A stretch of 64,000 nt of DNA from Sphaerochaeta globosa str. Buddy (GTDB lineage Bacteria; Spirochaetota; Spirochaetia; Sphaerochaetales; Sphaerochaetaceae), in assembly GCF_000190435.1 (NCBI RefSeq), contig NC_015152.1, forward strand, positions 3,106,458-3,170,457, in the 5' to 3' direction. The position numbers and the translations under genes are program-made. Shown one piece after another: positions 14,689-28,934 of this stretch. The notes beneath the pieces were generated by a model. It did no database searches. It saw only the letters and a list, made by a program, of their open reading frames with translations, and was not told where the DNA came from. How positions within the stretch are numbered: position 1 is the stretch's first letter; each line of letters starts with the position of its first letter.

Positions 14689-14819
14689 GGTTAACAGAAA
14701 TATCAGAGAAGAGAAGAGTTGATTGGAAACTGAAGGGCACTTTGTTGCAGGACTTGCACCTGCTGGTCGACGACCGTTGACGGCTGCGGCTGTGAGAGCC
14801 GCCGCCAGCCTTTCTTCTC

Positions 14820-16362
<1,543 letters not shown>

Positions 16363-21690: not shown

Positions 21691-21715
21691 TGCTTACAAT
21701 GCAAAAAATAGTCAA
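21687..21715 (-). promoter_or_regulatory. Candidate thrS promoter
   Basis: Minus strand TTGACT (21710-21715), a 17-nt spacer and CATTCT (21687-21692). It overlaps the stop codon of the preceding GAF gene and would place the start site at the foot of the T-box. Confidence 0.35.
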
Positions 21716-22191
21716 GAGTCAAACAACCGCGAGATGATCAGAGCTGCTTTCTCAAGAAGATTCTGATCCTCTATGGTAAAACGAGAGAGAAAGGGACTGT
21801 CGACATCCAACACTCCCACCACCTTTCCTTGAGTGTCGATAAGGGGGACGACTAGTTCACTGTTGCTTGCACCATCACAGGCAATATGCCCGGCAAAAGC
21901 ATGCACGTCATCGACGCGCACGCTCTGTGCGGTACGTGCACACAACCCGCACACCCCTTTGGAAAAGGGGATGTCGGTACAAGCCACCTTGCCTTGGAAT
22001 GGACCGAGCACCAGAGCCTGTCCTGAAGCATCAGTCAAGTAAAACCCAACCCAGTTGATGTCACTCAGCCTTTGGGCAAGCAGAGCCGAAGCATTGGACA
22101 GATGACAATATCGTCTAAGCTCTGTACCGTCCCCATCGGCGATCAGGGCTGCAAGCTGGTCAAGCAGTGCATCATCGCTATGCAACATCAT
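21712..22191 (-). CDS. Free methionine-(R)-sulfoxide reductase (GAF domain)
   Basis: Single GAF domain protein of 159 residues resembling fRMsr (YebR/MsrC type), which reduces free methionine-R-sulfoxide in the cytoplasm. Family landmarks: INWVGFYL, LGPFQGKVAC, the Cys pair in GVCGLCARTA, HIACDGASNSELVVP with the catalytic-region Cys, and VGVLDVDSP near the end. The first ATG of an ATGATG pair has GGAG about 8 nt upstream. It follows the hydrogenase gene by 17 nt and may be the last gene of that operon. Confidence 0.9.
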   Translation of the reverse strand: MMLHSDDALLDQLAALIADGDGTELRRYCHLSNASALLAQRLSDINWVGFYLTDASGQALVLGPFQGKVACTDIPFSKGVCGLCARTAQSVRVDDVHAFAGHIACDGASNSELVVPLIDTQGKVVGVLDVDSPFLSRFTIEDQNLLEKAALIISRLFDS

Positions 22192-22208
22192 ACGATACGC
22201 TCCTTATT

Positions 22209-23669
22209 CTACAAAATGGACCGCATGGCTTTCACCGGGGTGGCAGCTTTATTCCCACCACGGAGCTTCATAGCCACCGAGGGTTTTACTACCACACCCG
22301 GGCCGTTGATGCAACCGCCTTCGCAGCACATAACCTCGACCAAGTCGGCTTCGGCCGGGCGTTTCTCCCATATTTTCATCGTCCTGAACATTTTCTTGTC
22401 AACACCATTGATAGGAAGCACCTGCACCTCGTGATTCGACTCAAAGCGGCTGAGCACACACGAAGCAACCCCGCCGGAAAGAGCAAACTGCCTGCAGTCC
22501 TCAAAAGAAGCGGTATCCCCGAGGTCTGCTCCTTCCATCTCCCTTACATCGATATTCTTGGCAATGAACAGGGATGCAAGCTCACTGAAGGTAATTACCC
22601 CATCTATGGTATCCAGCCTTACGGCTTCCACTTTCTTGGCCAGGCAGGGACCGATGAAGACATTCCTTGTTTGGGGATTTGCCTCCTTTGCCTTCAACGC
22701 TGCATAGCCCATGGGAGAGAGAGCACATGATCGTCGTTCCTTGAGGAACGGCAGATGCTTGTCCACCAACTCCATGTAGGCAGGACAGCAGCTGGTCGTC
22801 ATAAACCCTTCACCCTTTCCTTTGCGCTGAGCCAGTTCAGCCGCCTCATGCAAACTCGTCGTCTCGGCTCCCTCGCTGACTTCCATTACAGAAGAGAAGC
22901 CGGCGCTGAGCAACGCTGCCTTGATTTGAGCCAGGGTACCGGGAAATTGGCCTTCAATTGCAGGGGCGATCAGGGCGGTGACATGCTCAGATCTCTCAAG
23001 CATCTTGACCACAGGAATCAAAGAGGAGCGCTCGACAATGGCTCCGAACGGGCAGCTCATCGCACATCGACCGCAGCTGATACACAGTTTGTAATCAATC
23101 TCCACATAGCCCTCTGCGTTCTTCTTCACCGCATTGACCGGGCAAGCTTCTTCGCAGGGGACAGGAATATGCACCACAGCGTGAAAGGGGCAGACCTCCT
23201 TGCACTTGCCGCAACGGATGCATCGACTCTCATCGATATGGGCTTGCCCTCCGCTGAAGGTAATGCAATCCTTCGGACAGTTAGCCAGACAGGGTCTTGC
23301 AAAGCAACCCCTGCAGGCATCGCTGATCAAATAGCGGTCCGGCGGACAGGAAGAGCAGGCTGTGCTGATGGTAGTCAGAATCGGAGCGGCAGGCTTGTCC
23401 GCCTCCATCACTTCCTGCACATACTCCGAGAGATTTTTCAGCTCGTCGTCCTCGGTCTCGATGTTGATACCCAGCAACGCCATGATCCGGTAGCGGACCA
23501 TTGCCCGCTCCTTGTAGATGCAGCATCGGTTGGGAACCCTCTGTTTGGGAATGATCCTGATGGGAAGTTTGTCGACATTTTCTTTCAGTGTCCCTGCAAA
23601 GAACTCCTTAAGAACCTCTGCATGAACCTGACGCTTCATCAGCGTATATTGGTTGTTGAGTTCAAGCAC
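22209..23669 (-). CDS. [FeFe]-hydrogenase, catalytic-type (group B-like)
   Basis: Iron-sulfur protein of 486 residues with a C-terminal H-cluster domain. The N-terminal half is Cys-rich: CSSCPPDRY, CRGCFARPCLANCP, CIRCGKCKEVCP and CISCGRCAMSCP, enough for about four 4Fe-4S clusters. The H-cluster loops are TSCCPAY (both Cys present), GPCLAKKVEA and CCEGGCINGPG, which are variants of the classical motifs. The GTG at 23669 has GGAGG 7 nt upstream and overlaps the preceding gene by 8 nt; an upstream in-frame start at 23684 is less likely. It probably makes or uses H2 with ferredoxin-level electrons. Group assignment is from motif pattern only. Confidence 0.85.
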   Translation of the reverse strand: MLELNNQYTLMKRQVHAEVLKEFFAGTLKENVDKLPIRIIPKQRVPNRCCIYKERAMVRYRIMALLGINIETEDDELKNLSEYVQEVMEADKPAAPILTTISTACSSCPPDRYLISDACRGCFARPCLANCPKDCITFSGGQAHIDESRCIRCGKCKEVCPFHAVVHIPVPCEEACPVNAVKKNAEGYVEIDYKLCISCGRCAMSCPFGAIVERSSLIPVVKMLERSEHVTALIAPAIEGQFPGTLAQIKAALLSAGFSSVMEVSEGAETTSLHEAAELAQRKGKGEGFMTTSCCPAYMELVDKHLPFLKERRSCALSPMGYAALKAKEANPQTRNVFIGPCLAKKVEAVRLDTIDGVITFSELASLFIAKNIDVREMEGADLGDTASFEDCRQFALSGGVASCVLSRFESNHEVQVLPINGVDKKMFRTMKIWEKRPAEADLVEVMCCEGGCINGPGVVVKPSVAMKLRGGNKAATPVKAMRSIL

Positions 23670-23928
23670 GTGTCGCCTCCGCAAGCAGTTTGCACAGCTT
23701 CTCCTGGTTCACACTGCCATAGACTTTCTCACCGATCCGAACATAGGGAGGACGGTCCTTGGACTGGGCATCCTTGCAACCGCCAAGGCAGCTCACGCCC
23801 TCAATCTCGCAACTGCAGAGTACCGCAGGGTCCAAGAAATCATTATATAAGAGCAAGTCAGCACCTCCCTGCACAAAACAGGCGGTTCCTACACAAATCT
23901 GTACATGTACTTTCTCTTTCTTTCCCAT
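23662..23928 (-). CDS. Small thioredoxin-like 2Fe-2S ferredoxin
   Basis: 88-residue protein with the pattern CVGTACFVQGG...CEIEGVSCLGGC, four Cys in the arrangement of thioredoxin-like 2Fe-2S domains (NuoE/HydC-type). The second ATG (23928) is chosen because GAGAGGAG lies 6 nt upstream of it, whereas the first ATG (23934) would abut the ribosome site. It lies between the phosphatase and hydrogenase genes and overlaps the latter. It probably passes electrons to or from the hydrogenase. Confidence 0.82.
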   Translation of the reverse strand: MGKKEKVHVQICVGTACFVQGGADLLLYNDFLDPAVLCSCEIEGVSCLGGCKDAQSKDRPPYVRIGEKVYGSVNQEKLCKLLAEATRA

Positions 23929-23942
23929 ATTCATCTCCTCTC

Positions 23943-25136
23943 TCAGATATATTCTTGTGAGGTCTCTTTCAGATAGACGTCTTCCAATGCCTTGCGAAGT
24001 CTGCCTATCAGGTTTCTTCTGATACCTATTTCCACCGGGATGCTTGGATCCTGATGGGCCTCATTGATCTTCGTTCCTACAATAAAGTGAACCTGATCGC
24101 TATCCTGCATGACCTGGACAAATTTTTTCACTGCGTCATTGGCCATCGAACGGACCGGTTTCTTCTGTTCCAAGGCAGTGGCCACCTTGCTTAGGGTGAG
24201 CATGCCCTCGGTAACGAGGTCGATACCCTCCATCATCGAGCAAGGCGGTACCTGAGGCGACCAACAGCTCATGTCCACCTTCAAGGGCTTTTGCAGGAGG
24301 CGGCTCACAATCTGGGCCGTCGTCCCGCCGCTGACGATCTTTTTGCCTTCGAAGTCCCTAATTTTCTGGACCAGCTGCTCATCATGTTCCTTGGTGAACG
24401 GAGGACCGGTCACCACCAACGTCCGTCTGGGTCTGCGTACATAGACTACCATGCAGGTAATGTCGTCCTTCGCACTGAGGCGGTCCAGGCTGTGTGCCCG
24501 ACAAACAATGGCCTGAGCCAATTCATGGCTGGAGATATCGGGATTCGCCTCAATCTGTGCATGGGTGAATTCGCGAACTCCATCCAGGCGCCAACCCAAC
24601 GGAAGGGACTTTCCCATACCGGCTTGGGTGACTCCGTCACTGAAAATCACCAATCGGCTGCCGATGGGCAGGTTGAGCACAGAATGCCCCAGCACCTCTT
24701 TCTTAAAGGCTCCGTCACGCTGAAGGTCGATGTGCTCGACATCCCACTGTACGCTCCTTTCACCTTGGAACACCAAGGCGCTTGGGTTGTCGTACTCCAC
24801 CAGGTTCATGGCAACTTGGTCATTGCCAACCATCCTGAGGTCTGCAATGGTGAAGGTTGCGTAACTGATCTTCCGTTCTTTGCATACCGGCAGCGTATTC
24901 ATGATGATGCGTGCAGAATGAGTGAGATCCATCGGGCTGAAACTCAATTTGTGAGCCATGCGGGCGGTCAGGCTGGCCAATACATTGGCTTTGACCCCGC
25001 TTCCCAACCCATCACTGAGCGTACACACAATTTGGTTGTTCTCAGGATTGCGGGAGAGCAGAAACACATCCCCCCCAATCTTTTGCCCATCCTTGTAAAT
25101 TTGAGCATAGTCTACATCGATGAAGAGGTCGTTCAT
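23943..25136 (-). CDS. SpoIIE-family (PP2C-like) protein phosphatase of the hydrogenase operon
   Basis: 397-residue protein. The first roughly 210 residues form a SpoIIE/PPM phosphatase domain: VCTLSDGLGSGVKAN near residue 37, IFSDGVTQAG and DDITCMVV supply the metal-binding Asp residues. The C-terminal half is less familiar and contains GGTTAQIVSRLL and a CSMMEGIDLVTEGMLTLSKV segment with two nearby Cys. Such phosphatases act on phospho-Ser/Thr, typically of anti-sigma antagonists; no partner is in the window. Its start overlaps the HydS-like gene as ATGA, which indicates tight coupling with the sensory hydrogenase. Confidence 0.85.
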   Translation of the reverse strand: MNDLFIDVDYAQIYKDGQKIGGDVFLLSRNPENNQIVCTLSDGLGSGVKANVLASLTARMAHKLSFSPMDLTHSARIIMNTLPVCKERKISYATFTIADLRMVGNDQVAMNLVEYDNPSALVFQGERSVQWDVEHIDLQRDGAFKKEVLGHSVLNLPIGSRLVIFSDGVTQAGMGKSLPLGWRLDGVREFTHAQIEANPDISSHELAQAIVCRAHSLDRLSAKDDITCMVVYVRRPRRTLVVTGPPFTKEHDEQLVQKIRDFEGKKIVSGGTTAQIVSRLLQKPLKVDMSCWSPQVPPCSMMEGIDLVTEGMLTLSKVATALEQKKPVRSMANDAVKKFVQVMQDSDQVHFIVGTKINEAHQDPSIPVEIGIRRNLIGRLRKALEDVYLKETSQEYI

Positions 25137-26944
25137 GGCTCTTCCTTGGTAAAACCATCGCTCTGGCCATTGCCGGGAACCTTGAAGGCGTCAATGAGAC
25201 TATTGAGCATTATTTCTGTCTCGGCGGCATTCTCGCCGAGCAGGCTGGCGATCTGCTGTACGGTTTCCAAACTCTTCTGGATGACATCCTCGGCTTTCTT
25301 GATCACCGTCTCCCTGCGAACAGTAGGGGTGGTGATATCCTCAAACAACGCTCCTACCAAGTGCTGCTTCTCCACGGAGAAGAAGGTCACCTTCAGAAAC
25401 TTGTCCTGATAATGCAAGCGATACTGCTGGGCGCGAGGATTGGCAAATTGGTCCTTGAACTTCTCATGGAAGGGAACAAAGCGCTCCAGAGGAAGCCCGC
25501 CCACCAGAGTAAGCAGGTCTCCTTCGATGGAGAAGTCGATGTCGCCAAAAAGCTTGAGGAAACTATTGTTGCAATCGACGATTCGAAGCTGATCATCAAC
25601 GATGACCACCCCGATCGGGATGGTTCTGAGCAACACATCGATTTTGCTCTGCGCTTCCTTGCGCATTTTAGTGACACACATTTCCGGCTCGGCCATTCCA
25701 TCGAGGTAGGCGATGGCCATCTCACGGCAGCTGTTGTAACCACAACCTCCGCAGTTCAGCTCCTCAGCCTTATCGCGTTTGCCCAGACTCTTCAATGCCC
25801 GTTCGATTTGAGCCTCACTATGTACCGAAACAAAGCTGGAAACCGGTGGGTTCATCGCAACGCTTCCAGGTTTCTCAATCAAGGCATAGCCCTGTTCGAG
25901 CAGGGTGGAAACAAACGCCCGGTCTCCGGCAAATACAGGAGCATCATCGGTGATACGGCTGCGGGTATATCGGGAGGAACAGCCCTTCTTCGCTGCCGAA
26001 GAACGGCCTTTCTCACAACCTGGCCCGTTGATGCAGCCTCCCTCACAAAAGAGCAATTCCAAGAAATCCGAATTGCGCTGGCCCTTTTCCATCCCTTCGA
26101 GGGTGCCCACCACCTGGGTGGAACCGCTGATGGCGACAGCCTTGGTCTGGAAAGGATCGCTTCCCCAGCTAAGGGAGGCTATCATGCCACCTTCAATCGG
26201 ATAGAGGGTGGATTTACCGGCCTTGCACGGTACAAACGGGGGAACCAAGGAAGGATCAGCCTCAATCTGCTCTGCAAGCAGACTCAGATCAAGGCTCTCA
26301 AGCTTCAACCAAGTACGCAGCTCCTCGAAGGTCAGTGCGAAATCAGGGTATCCGGGTGTTTCATCAGCCTCTACTTTCTTTGCAATGCAAGGACCGACGA
26401 ATACCACTCCGATATCCTGGCCATAGAGCTTTCTGAGGTATGCGCTATGGCATTGGAGCGGGGAGGGAACCTTGCTCAAGGCAGGGACCAGGGAGGGATG
26501 ATATTTCTTTATATTCTGGACAACGGTAGGACAGGCAGTGGAAATCCAGGAACACGTGCCGTCATGCTCCTTGGCATATTCTTCTATCGACTCATTGACC
26601 AAAGCCGCTCCCAGAGCCGTCTCGCTGACAGCGGTAAACCCAAGACGCTCCAAGGCGAGAACCAAGGCATCGACACCCTCGGGGAATTCACTGGCGGCAG
26701 AGGGGGCAAGACTGCAATATATCTTCCTCCCACTGATGAGAAACTGTCTGACGCGGGCTAGGTCGTTGCGGATTTTCTTTGCATGAGAAGGACAAATATC
26801 GACACAGTGGCCGCAGTAAATGCAGCGGTCCTTCACAACCACAGCAGAACCATCCTTGACTTGTATGGCTTTTACCGGGCAGCCGCGAACGCATTTATAG
26901 CAGTCCCGACATTCAGTAAGCTCGGTATAGATGGGATGGATCAC
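25133..26944 (-). CDS. Sensory-type [FeFe]-hydrogenase with PAS domain (HydS-like, group C)
   Basis: 603 residues. Order: two 4Fe-4S motifs (CRDCYKCVRGCP, CIYCGHCVDICP; residues 11-55), an H-cluster domain (about 70-330), a second Fe-S domain (CGGCGYNSC...C, about 375-405) and a PAS domain (about 420-535) with a C-terminal helical tail. In the H-cluster loops, the usual TSCCP is STACP, so the proton-transfer Cys is Ala while the cluster-ligand Cys remains. GPCIAKKVEA and FCEGGCINGPG are kept. This matches group C hydrogenases proposed to sense H2. The GTG at 26944 overlaps the upstream stop (GTGA), after GGGGAG; the frame opens further to 27067 without a better start. Confidence 0.87.
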   Translation of the reverse strand: MIHPIYTELTECRDCYKCVRGCPVKAIQVKDGSAVVVKDRCIYCGHCVDICPSHAKKIRNDLARVRQFLISGRKIYCSLAPSAASEFPEGVDALVLALERLGFTAVSETALGAALVNESIEEYAKEHDGTCSWISTACPTVVQNIKKYHPSLVPALSKVPSPLQCHSAYLRKLYGQDIGVVFVGPCIAKKVEADETPGYPDFALTFEELRTWLKLESLDLSLLAEQIEADPSLVPPFVPCKAGKSTLYPIEGGMIASLSWGSDPFQTKAVAISGSTQVVGTLEGMEKGQRNSDFLELLFCEGGCINGPGCEKGRSSAAKKGCSSRYTRSRITDDAPVFAGDRAFVSTLLEQGYALIEKPGSVAMNPPVSSFVSVHSEAQIERALKSLGKRDKAEELNCGGCGYNSCREMAIAYLDGMAEPEMCVTKMRKEAQSKIDVLLRTIPIGVVIVDDQLRIVDCNNSFLKLFGDIDFSIEGDLLTLVGGLPLERFVPFHEKFKDQFANPRAQQYRLHYQDKFLKVTFFSVEKQHLVGALFEDITTPTVRRETVIKKAEDVIQKSLETVQQIASLLGENAAETEIMLNSLIDAFKVPGNGQSDGFTKEEP

Positions 26945-27201
26945 GCTCTCTCCTCCCCGCCAAGCAACTGCGTCCTGATGAGGGCAAGCACGCTTGCAGT
27001 ATCGAGTCCGCTGTAGGTTTCGCTGCCAATTCTCAGGTTCGGTCCCTTTGCACAATTGCCAAGGCATAAGTGCCCAACCAATGCAACGCGATCAGCGAGA
27101 CCTTCCTCTTTGAGATATGCCTCCAAGGCTTGCAGGGTTTGCGAATTGCCACGCGCAAAGCAGGAACTTCCCAAACACAGTTCTACAACCAATTTTTCCA
27201 T
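26941..27201 (-). CDS. Thioredoxin-like 2Fe-2S protein leading the hydrogenase operon
   Basis: 86-residue protein with CLGSSCFARG...HLCLGNCAKGP, the four-Cys pattern of thioredoxin-like 2Fe-2S domains. The start MEKLVVELC at 27201 has GAGG 9 nt upstream. An upstream frame to 27249 runs through the promoter region and is rejected. It is a paralogue of the product of 23662-23928. Being first in the operon and overlapping the sensory hydrogenase gene, it is a likely redox partner of that protein. Confidence 0.8.
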   Translation of the reverse strand: MEKLVVELCLGSSCFARGNSQTLQALEAYLKEEGLADRVALVGHLCLGNCAKGPNLRIGSETYSGLDTASVLALIRTQLLGGEERA

Positions 27202-27233
27202 TGCTACAACCTCATAACCTATTGTTGGGCTCA

Positions 27234-27262
27234 ATCGTACTGCGAACACCCTTCCAAGTCAA
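27234..27262 (-). promoter_or_regulatory. Candidate promoter of the hydrogenase operon
   Basis: Minus strand TTGACT (27257-27262), a 17-nt spacer and TACGAT (27234-27239). Upstream of the -35, roughly 27270-27360, is an almost pure A/T stretch that could act as an UP element. I could not find a full Rex palindrome; a TGTGAA half-site is at 27349-27354. Confidence 0.45.
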
Positions 27263-27360
27263 TGATTCTTAGGAAAATGGAACTTTATTCTATCTATAAG
27301 GTATTTATTTGGTATATTATTTATGTTATTATAATTTTAATATAATTATTTTCACATTAT

Positions 27361-27387
27361 TATGGGGTATCGTCATGATACCCCATA
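27361..27387 (-). terminator. Hairpin after rex
   Basis: Perfect 11-bp inverted repeat TATGGGGTATC / GATACCCCATA with a 5-nt loop, located 16 nt past the rex stop codon. The downstream run on the minus strand is ATAATAATG, so it is a weak or assisted terminator, or possibly a protein-binding palindrome. Confidence 0.5.
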
Positions 27388-27402: not shown

Positions 27403-28074
27403 TTACCACTCGTCATCTTCTTCGAGCAAATCTTCCTTTACCATTTTTCGCTTCACCTTGGCAGAAAGCACGGCAAAGCTTGTTGCCAGATCGGTACGCT
27501 GTACAACAACCCGCATAGGAAGCTTCAAATCCTTGGGTGCAAAGTTCCAAATGGCAAGAATCCCACACTCCACCAGCTTCTCAGCTACTTCTTGGGCCTG
27601 CACCGCAGGAACGGCAATGACGCCGATGTTTACACGATTCTCTTCGAGGTACTGCTTCAGCTGGGTAAGAGGATAGACGGGAACCTCCCCAAGCTTTGCA
27701 CCCCACTTGTGCTGGTCGATGTCGAAAGCAGCCACAATTTTGAGACCATAGGTTTCAAAGCCCTCATACCGGGCAAGGGCTGAACCTAGATGGCCCGCCC
27801 CGATAAGAACGGCATCGGTGGCGTTATCCCAACCAAGGGTGTGGATGATTGCGTCGATAAGCTTAACAACGGTAAACCCCACCTTGGGTTTGCCTTCTAT
27901 TCCCGTACAGGAAATATCCTTGCGGACTTGGATCGGTTTAAGGCCAAGCTCGTCGGCGAGCATGGTAGCCGATACCATTTCCATCCCCTCATCACGATAG
28001 CCTTTCAAAAGGCGGAGGTAGGAAGGAAAACGCTTGATGGTAGGGATAGGAATGCCACGGTTGTCTGTTGCCAT
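27403..28074 (-). CDS. rex: Redox-sensing transcriptional repressor Rex
   Basis: Dimeric DNA-binding protein that senses NADH/NAD+ and represses fermentation and hydrogen genes. The N-terminal winged helix includes IPIPTIKRFPSYLRLL and VRKDISCTG. The Rossmann motif is VLIGAGHLGSALARY with FDIDQHKWG following, and the C-terminal swap helix is at the end. The second ATG (28074) of an ATGATG pair is preferred for its 5-nt spacing from AGGAG; the first overlaps the ispH stop. At 223 residues it has usual length, with an acidic C-terminal tail (LLEEDDEW). It is a plausible regulator of the adjacent hydrogenase operon. Confidence 0.95.
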   Translation of the reverse strand: MATDNRGIPIPTIKRFPSYLRLLKGYRDEGMEMVSATMLADELGLKPIQVRKDISCTGIEGKPKVGFTVVKLIDAIIHTLGWDNATDAVLIGAGHLGSALARYEGFETYGLKIVAAFDIDQHKWGAKLGEVPVYPLTQLKQYLEENRVNIGVIAVPAVQAQEVAEKLVECGILAIWNFAPKDLKLPMRVVVQRTDLATSFAVLSAKVKRKMVKEDLLEEDDEW

Positions 28075-28076
28075 CA

Positions 28077-28934
28077 TTACTCCTGTTGCAGTGCACCTAC
28101 AATTCTCTCTACCAGAGAATGCGGCGTGGATGCACCCGCTGTGATACCCAGTATAGCACACTGGTACATTTCGTTTGTGATTTCTGTTTCATCTTCGATG
28201 TGCCAAGCTTTCTTTCCCATCTCCAGAACCAAGGAGTACAGCGCTCTTGTATTTGCGCTATCCTTTCCGCCGATTACGACAACCCCATCACACTGACTTG
28301 CCAGTTCAATGAGTGCAGTCCTACGGTTCACCGAGCTGGGGCAGATTTCGTTGGCGAATAGGACCGTAGTGCCAGTATCCTGCCAAACAGAAAGTGCTTG
28401 CTTGATTTGCGTCCAAAGGCTCTGGTCGAACGTGGTCTGTACAAATACAGCATAGGAAACCCCTTCTTCAGGTTCGCCTACATCTTGAAGACCGGTGATA
28501 AGCCTGCTGGCTATCACCTTCTGATCGATACACACGCCCTGCATGGCCGTCGATTCAGGGTGCTTGGCATGCCCTACAATCAGGATGCTGTGATTCGGGG
28601 CATATCGTGCAATATGGTGGAGATTTCGCTTGACCACCGGACACGTGGCATCGACCACGTGGTATCCGGCATCCAGGAATTCAGAACGTAAGGCATCTCC
28701 GATGCCATGCGCCCTGAGCACCACCACGCCTTTTTGCTGGCCGGCAGGGCCGTTAATCTCAACCAATCCTTCTTGGGCGAATTGGTTGCAGACTTGCTTG
28801 TTATGAATCAATTTCCCCAAGGAGTATACTGGCAAGCCTGCCTCTCGAGCGTCCTCAATGGCTTTCTGGGCCATATCGAGTGCACGGGAAACACCCTTGC
28901 AATACCCCATGGTTTGTGACAGTACAATTTTCAT
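28077..28934 (-). CDS. ispH: 4-hydroxy-3-methylbut-2-enyl diphosphate reductase
   Basis: Last enzyme of the MEP isoprenoid pathway, a 4Fe-4S protein producing IPP and DMAPP. Cluster-ligand Cys residues lie in GYCKGVSRA, DATCPVVKRN and ANEICPSSVNRR. RAHGIGD, GHAKHPE and TAGASTPHSLVE are also typical. It has 285 residues. The frame is open to 29108, but the upstream part is unlike the family and crosses the secF terminator. The ATG at 28934 has only a weak AGG upstream. It overlaps the rex start. Confidence 0.95.
   Translation of the reverse strand: MKIVLSQTMGYCKGVSRALDMAQKAIEDAREAGLPVYSLGKLIHNKQVCNQFAQEGLVEINGPAGQQKGVVVLRAHGIGDALRSEFLDAGYHVVDATCPVVKRNLHHIARYAPNHSILIVGHAKHPESTAMQGVCIDQKVIASRLITGLQDVGEPEEGVSYAVFVQTTFDQSLWTQIKQALSVWQDTGTTVLFANEICPSSVNRRTALIELASQCDGVVVIGGKDSANTRALYSLVLEMGKKAWHIEDETEITNEMYQCAILGITAGASTPHSLVERIVGALQQE

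Follow-up and report, generated by a model that had tools for sequence, protein, structure and literature searches.

Whether group C [FeFe]-hydrogenases truly signal H2, and to what, has remained open since the work on the hfs genes and on Ruminococcus albus. The question is raised again by a 64,000-nucleotide stretch of the genome of Sphaerochaeta globosa str. Buddy (a single contig of 3,316,466 bp; NC_015152.1, positions 3,106,458 to 3,170,457), hereafter the window, in whose numbering positions are given below. Here five genes of the minus strand, lying together from 22209 to about 27201, encode a thioredoxin-like [2Fe-2S] protein (2Fe2S_1), a HydS/HfsB-type sensory [FeFe]-hydrogenase (HydS), an HfsC-type SpoIIE/PPM phosphatase (HfsC), a second thioredoxin-like [2Fe-2S] protein (2Fe2S_2) and an HfsD-type group B [FeFe]-hydrogenase (HfsD). 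The reading favoured here, which is considered fairly probable, is that of an hfs-type H2-responsive regulatory cassette adjoining a group B hydrogenase that it likely controls through a HydS-HfsC switch. Judged by its genes and residues, the cassette belongs to the published hfs, or group C phosphatase-linked, kind; what is new is a portable three-gene core with an exchangeable output, a domain found only in HfsC, a helix behind the PAS domain of HydS and a short list of possible phospho-partners.

The conserved core and its exchangeable hydrogenase

A scan with the phosphatase alone retrieved at least 586 related contigs, and the 80 best loci, which are not a random sample, were analysed. 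They span at least 12 phylum-level lineages, named from the record titles of metagenome-assembled genomes (MAGs): Spirochaetota, Bacillota, Planctomycetota, Verrucomicrobiota/Lentisphaerota, Acidobacteriota, Hydrogenedentota, Bacteroidota, Riflebacteria, Nitrospirota, Cloacimonadota, deltaproteobacterial lineages and Alphaproteobacteria. The nearest relative found is a Sphaerochaeta MAG, whose phosphatase is 80% identical. In 79 of the 80 loci the gene immediately upstream of HfsC is HydS, usually 0-50 bp away or overlapping it, and, because the pair recurs to this extent in loci fetched by the phosphatase alone, the pairing is beyond chance. The exception is a Bacteroidales MAG (L140, HfsC at 1405-2592), in which HydS is absent upstream and 1.4 kb of unrelated DNA stands instead. 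Upstream of HydS, 2Fe2S_1 is found in 68 of 79 loci. The nearby catalytic hydrogenase varies: it is of group B in 42 loci, nearly always accompanied by 2Fe2S_2, of the HydA/HydB(C) type in 17 and of both kinds in one, and the stretch holds none in the remaining 20, some of which are contig edges. Thus, the conserved core is 2Fe2S_1/HydS/HfsC, and the output hydrogenase is exchangeable. Two HydS-HfsC cassettes stand in tandem in Marinifilum, with one 2Fe-2S gene between them (L144:8244-14536 and L145:3231-9558), and a locus from Riflebacteria (L133) also holds a second, more diverged HydS-HfsC pair.

Domain calls in the window were made with Pfam and NCBIfam profiles. The core opens with 2Fe2S_1 (26941..27201; PF01257/2Fe-2S_thioredx, E 2.4e-9), followed by HydS (25133..26944, starting at GTG 26944) and HfsC (23943..25136), whose genes share an ATGA overlap at 25136-25133; then come 2Fe2S_2 (23662..23934; PF01257/2Fe-2S_thioredx, E 6.4e-8) and HfsD (22209..23684 from a TTG start, or from ATG 23639; Fe_hyd_lg_C, 6.7e-48). 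The exact ATGA spacing occurs in 14 of 76 loci, mostly in Sphaerochaetaceae, and is thereby ruled out as a general feature of the cassette. HfsD shows the motifs TSCCP, GPC and CEGGCINGP and passes the curated cut-off of TIGR04105 for group B (490 against 450 bits). An earlier note on this DNA had given the five genes in this order, with close or overlapping ends and the ATGA junction between HydS and the phosphatase, and all of this is read in the sequence. Its term for the last gene, a catalytic-type hydrogenase, is made more exact by the group B assignment, and the span it named, 21712-27262, contains the five genes together with a sixth, at 21712-22191, that it had left unlisted. It had also held that a lack of co-conservation of the five genes among relatives would speak against its proposal; co-conservation holds for the three-gene core and does not extend to the hydrogenase.

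Several published systems resemble this locus. The hfsABCD genes of Thermoanaerobacterium (PMC5707799; PMC11837493) share the order of a PAS sensor (HfsB), a serine phosphatase (HfsC) and a ferredoxin-linked hydrogenase (HfsD), the last assigned to group B (PMC8924675), so that the earlier note was right to compare the two. The first gene may differ, since a thioredoxin-like 2Fe-2S gene precedes HydS here, whereas HfsA is described as aligning poorly with known proteins. In the present locus, moreover, the phosphatase and hydrogenase genes are separated by a second 2Fe-2S gene, and rex is directly upstream. The phosphatase-linked group C3 of HydDB (PMC5037454) likewise encodes a group C-type H-cluster protein together with a Ser/Thr phosphatase; no difference was seen in the features compared, and the likeness is one of gene content and residues. 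The hydS-hydA2 cluster of R. albus (PMC6776011) is a regulated one with a PAS sensor, a putative Ser/Thr phosphatase and a ferredoxin-dependent hydrogenase, but it includes an alcohol/aldehyde dehydrogenase and a hydrogenase called group A1, whereas the operon described here holds no alcohol dehydrogenase and its hydrogenase is of group B.

HydS, HfsC and their predicted contact

HydS (603 aa; Fe_hyd_lg_C, 2e-41; Fer4; FeS, PF04060; PAS_8, 8.9e-8) consists of an N-terminal Fer4 pair, the H-domain, a C-terminal FeS cluster (PF04060 at 437-465), a PAS domain (PAS_8 at 478-525, both in the residue numbering of the open reading frame (ORF) scanned from 27067) and a C-terminal tail. The H-cluster cysteines C138, C186, C300 and C304 are present in 74 of 74 aligned HydS proteins, as are the cysteines of the C-terminal cluster (C398/C401/C406/C423). 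At the position of the proton-relay residue C299 of CpI, HydS has A137, and Ala is found there in 64 of the 74. A PAS domain, a C-terminal FeS cluster and Ala at C299 are the marks of the putatively sensory group C (PMC10055695; PMC10407848); with these, and with all H-cluster cysteines kept, HydS is by its sequence a putatively sensory hydrogenase of the group C type.

These residues bear on the possibility that HydS mainly serves HfsD, as an enzyme or as a subunit for electron transfer, the phosphatase acting locally on the hydrogenase or on the 2Fe-2S proteins of the operon. The two 2Fe-2S genes, one of which travels with HydS as described above, would suit such a role, and deletions of hfsC and hfsD give a common phenotype (PMC5707799). 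The cassette stands, however, beside a group B hydrogenase, a HydAB(C) one or none, and a catalytic role for HydS is hard to square with the Ala at C299 or with the slow turnover that marks group C enzymes, so this explanation is regarded as unlikely.

HydS was found to carry no output domain of the kinase, receiver or DNA-binding sort; only the tail follows its PAS domain. This tail has the consensus KAxxVIxKNLxTVQQIAxLLGENAAETExxLNSII, is judged helical from its sequence pattern and is the most conserved of the parts compared, with a mean column identity of 0.70 against 0.56 for the H-domain and 0.50 for the PAS domain. Since HydS lacks an output domain and ends in so strongly conserved a helix, a direct contact between HydS and HfsC is plausible, and the helix is a plausible candidate for the dock.

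The receiving partner appears intact. HfsC (397 aa; SpoIIE, PF07228, E 1.6e-10) has a catalytic domain at about residues 1-235 that aligns with the structures of SpoIIE and RsbX; the AlphaFold2 (AF2) model (mean predicted local distance difference test, pLDDT, 87.7) and Foldseek, which matches it to SpoIIE 5mqh (E 5e-13), place it on SpoIIE/RsbX/RsbU structures. D23, D42-G43, D167-G168 and D224/D225 are invariant in 81 of 81 sequences and align with SpoIIE, in which the metal ligands are D628, D746, D795 and G629 (PMC5468089). The earlier note had named a loss of metal-binding residues as evidence that would speak against its proposal; no such loss is seen. HfsC is thus by its residues an intact PPM phosphatase, with predicted activity.

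Residues 235-397 of HfsC (23946..24434) form a separate alpha/beta domain, confidently predicted (AF2 pLDDT 91.4) and with a mean conservation slightly above that of the catalytic domain (0.61 and 0.57, respectively). It matched no Pfam or NCBIfam family. Among 296 spirochaete genomes it is found in HfsC alone, its 42 loci in 41 genomes being exactly those of the phosphatase, and its own genome holds a single copy. The best folds are methylglyoxal synthases (Foldseek probability up to 1.00, E 2.7e-3, TM about 0.4-0.5); the match is weak, hhalign against 11 MgsA sequences gave a probability of 0.1, and homology to these enzymes is not supported. The domain is therefore uncatalogued, and it probably serves as a second input (a ligand site) or as a substrate dock.

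From a structural perspective, SpoIIE-type phosphatases are regulated through a pair of switch helices on which other helices dock; the docking helix of RsbP is supplied by a regulatory domain of the same chain (PMC5468089). HfsC shares the PPM domain and metal residues with RsbP, RsbU and SpoIIE, and in RsbP a helix forms the link from the regulatory domain to the PP2C switch; here, in contrast, the PAS domain and helix sit on a separate protein, HydS, as if RsbP had been split in two, HfsC carries the additional C-terminal domain, and no STAS substrate is encoded at the cassette. By this analogy and from the residue pattern we infer that the HydS helix is the contact site and that H2 moves it. 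In the favoured mechanism, the slow H-cluster of HydS, which has no proton-relay cysteine, would let the protein sense either H2 itself or the redox state of the ferredoxin/H2 pool, and HydS might exchange electrons with the thioredoxin-like 2Fe-2S protein encoded alongside. The resulting change would be passed on by the PAS domain to the helix at the C-terminus. This helix would bind HfsC in trans, docking on its switch helices (residues 47-81). HfsC would then remove phosphate from a Ser/Thr of some protein encoded elsewhere, and this dephosphorylation would alter the expression of the hydrogenase operon and of rival fermentation genes.

That HydS and HfsC are neighbours without signalling to each other, being transcribed together for co-expression only, is considered extremely unlikely. 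The interaction is proposed here from gene and sequence patterns, a circumstance that favours this explanation, and yet the adjacency persists across the sampled lineages though the rest of the operon varies, and the conserved post-PAS helix has no partner in cis.

The sign of the proposed HydS-HfsC switch may be read from published genetics, on which its presumed effect on hydrogen metabolism is modelled. In Thermoanaerobacterium saccharolyticum, deletion of hfsA or hfsB raises the ethanol yield and the adhE transcript, deletion of hfsB also raises hydrogenase activity, and the high-ethanol effect depends on wild-type hfsC and hfsD (PMC5707799). In R. albus, the HydS/hydrogenase/adhE cluster drops 111-fold when a partner organism takes away H2 (PMC6776011). 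Following these genetics, HydS, together with HfsA, would be a brake on the output that depends on HfsC and HfsD; in the simplest reading, HydS would hold back HfsC in one H2 or redox state.

Some observations weigh against this interpretation. The hfsA deletion was partly polar (PMC5707799). H2 fails to reduce the C-terminal cluster of TamHydS, a group D enzyme (PMC13104023), and for this reason an electron relay to the C-terminal cluster of HydS is doubtful. Furthermore, a quarter of the loci show no catalytic hydrogenase in the stretch, so that the regulated gene need not adjoin the cassette, and across the 80 loci the surroundings of the cassette, out to 10 kb, hold no recurring STAS, kinase, anti-sigma or DRTGG gene. 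The extras that do recur are HydF, a radical-SAM gene (probably HydE), unrelated histidine kinases and local housekeeping genes.

Candidate partners of the phosphatase

The protein on which HfsC acts is to be sought among few components. Profile searches of the genome gave one SpoIIE protein, one HPr kinase and one stand-alone RsbW-like HATPase (HATPase_c_2), with no Hanks-type kinase and no STAS_2; the sole STAS domain sits in a 559-aa frame, so that a stand-alone STAS phosphoprotein of the RsbU/RsbV/RsbW partner-switching type is absent from the genome. The search for STAS or anti-sigma proteins elsewhere in the genome, proposed in the earlier note, therefore yields no free-standing STAS protein and a single RsbW-like HATPase, beside a second H-cluster protein.

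This HATPase is encoded at 2494295-2496427 of the genome contig (C1; L016:8296-10428), in one operon with a DRTGG protein and an H-cluster protein of 445 aa, the genes touching or overlapping. The H-cluster protein has a C-terminal FeS cluster and no PAS domain, which is the architecture of group D (PMC10407848; PMC13104023), and as far as its domains tell it is probably a sensory hydrogenase of group D, encoded with a partner that resembles a kinase. Two opposed H2 sensors can be imagined, in which the RsbW-like HATPase counters HfsC and the DRTGG or another small protein replaces the STAS substrate. In fact, the only SpoIIE protein and the only stand-alone HATPase_c_2 of the genome each stand beside their own H-cluster protein, and Hanks kinases and STAS_2 are missing, as the proposal would have it. 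In the 296 spirochaetes, HfsC occurs in 6 of 16 genomes with the group-D-like protein and in 35 of 280 without it, a co-occurrence somewhat above expectation (Fisher p 0.014, uncorrected for phylogeny). So weak an association could, however, stem from shared H2 metabolism alone; the module lies beside the cassette in none of the 80 loci, and 35 of the 41 HfsC-bearing spirochaetes lack the group-D-like protein. Two opposed sensors are accordingly held to be improbable. As a universal partner of HfsC the DRTGG-HATPase-H-cluster module was rejected, and, because its H-cluster protein is missing from those 35 genomes, it may be a local partner at most. A related elaboration, to which only a low probability is given, would make HfsC a two-input device, with H2 arriving through HydS and a metabolite at the C-terminal domain, which would then be a ligand-binding domain not described before; in genomes like this one, HfsC would be opposed by the RsbW-like kinase tied to the group-D-like sensor, and a DRTGG-type protein would stand in for STAS.

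PPM phosphatases of Bacillus can act on HPr(Ser-P). The target of HfsC could by the same token be a general carbon or redox regulator, for example HPr(Ser-P) made by HPr kinase, which would couple H2 to catabolite control. The single HPr kinase and the missing Hanks kinases of this genome would fit, but an HPr gene is linked to the cassette in none of the loci, and this alternative is very unlikely.

Upstream region, neighbouring genes and meaning of the cassette

On the minus strand the order is rex, 2Fe2S_1, HydS, HfsC, 2Fe2S_2, HfsD and a GAF-domain gene. The rex gene (27403..28161; NF003994, 261 bits against a cut-off of 130), encoding the NAD(H)-responsive repressor Rex, is directly upstream and adjoins the cassette in loci L080, L083-L086, L088-L090 and L109; it is a conserved neighbour in Sphaerochaetaceae, outside the cassette itself. 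The GAF-domain protein (21712..22191, minus strand; PF01590, E 4.4e-13) resembles free-methionine-R-sulfoxide reductase (fRMsr) by its residues. Its gene adjoins the cassette in close relatives only (L080, L083, L084, L088 and L089) and is a local neighbour outside the cassette.

Between rex and the operon, a hairpin read from the sequence (GGGGTATC-GTCAT-GATACCCC, 27364..27384) is a possible terminator, with a weak T tract and missed by the terminator scan. Next to it, at 27341..27356, lies a degenerate TGTGA-N6-TCACA palindrome with 2 mismatches and one half-site intact only, a candidate operator of the Rex or CRP type. Of 12 Sphaerochaetaceae upstream regions, 10 carry this palindrome with at most 2 mismatches and 6 with at most 1, against a background of 5 sites with at most 1 mismatch in some 220 kb of other DNA, and it is perfect upstream of the operon in the relatives L081, L086, L089 and L090. 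The canonical Rex site TTGTTAANNNNTTAACAA was sought upstream of the operon here and is absent. A second rex, with a similar TGTGA-N6-TCACA-like site (2 mismatches) in front, is divergent from hydC. The HydABC-type operon in question (hydC, HATPase, 2Fe-2S, hydB, hydA) is found at 2512804-2518690 of the genome contig (L017:7804-13690). The pattern suggests that the cassette and the second-rex/hydC region may be under common Rex control; binding by a CRP-family protein would fit it equally. A sigma-70-like promoter, TTGACT-17-TACGAT, is predicted at 27234..27262 on the minus strand, and TTGACT with a TATA-like box recurs at the same place in relatives. The start of 2Fe2S_1 is most likely ATG 27201 rather than GTG 27249, because the latter falls inside this promoter-like stretch, whose -35 box is the recurring one. 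An Rfam search of the operon gave no match. At 14700-16120 of the window, ORFs are dense and overlap on both strands, a pattern common over ribosomal RNA genes.

For the question of whether group C hydrogenases signal H2, and to what, the comparison yields specific candidates, namely the C-terminal helix of HydS as the contact with HfsC and the domain confined to HfsC as a second input or substrate dock. Moreover, since the genome has few parts for Ser/Thr phospho-signalling, the search for the target is a short one. For the family as a whole, the comparison shows a regulatory core that is portable between phyla and pairs with differing catalytic hydrogenases.

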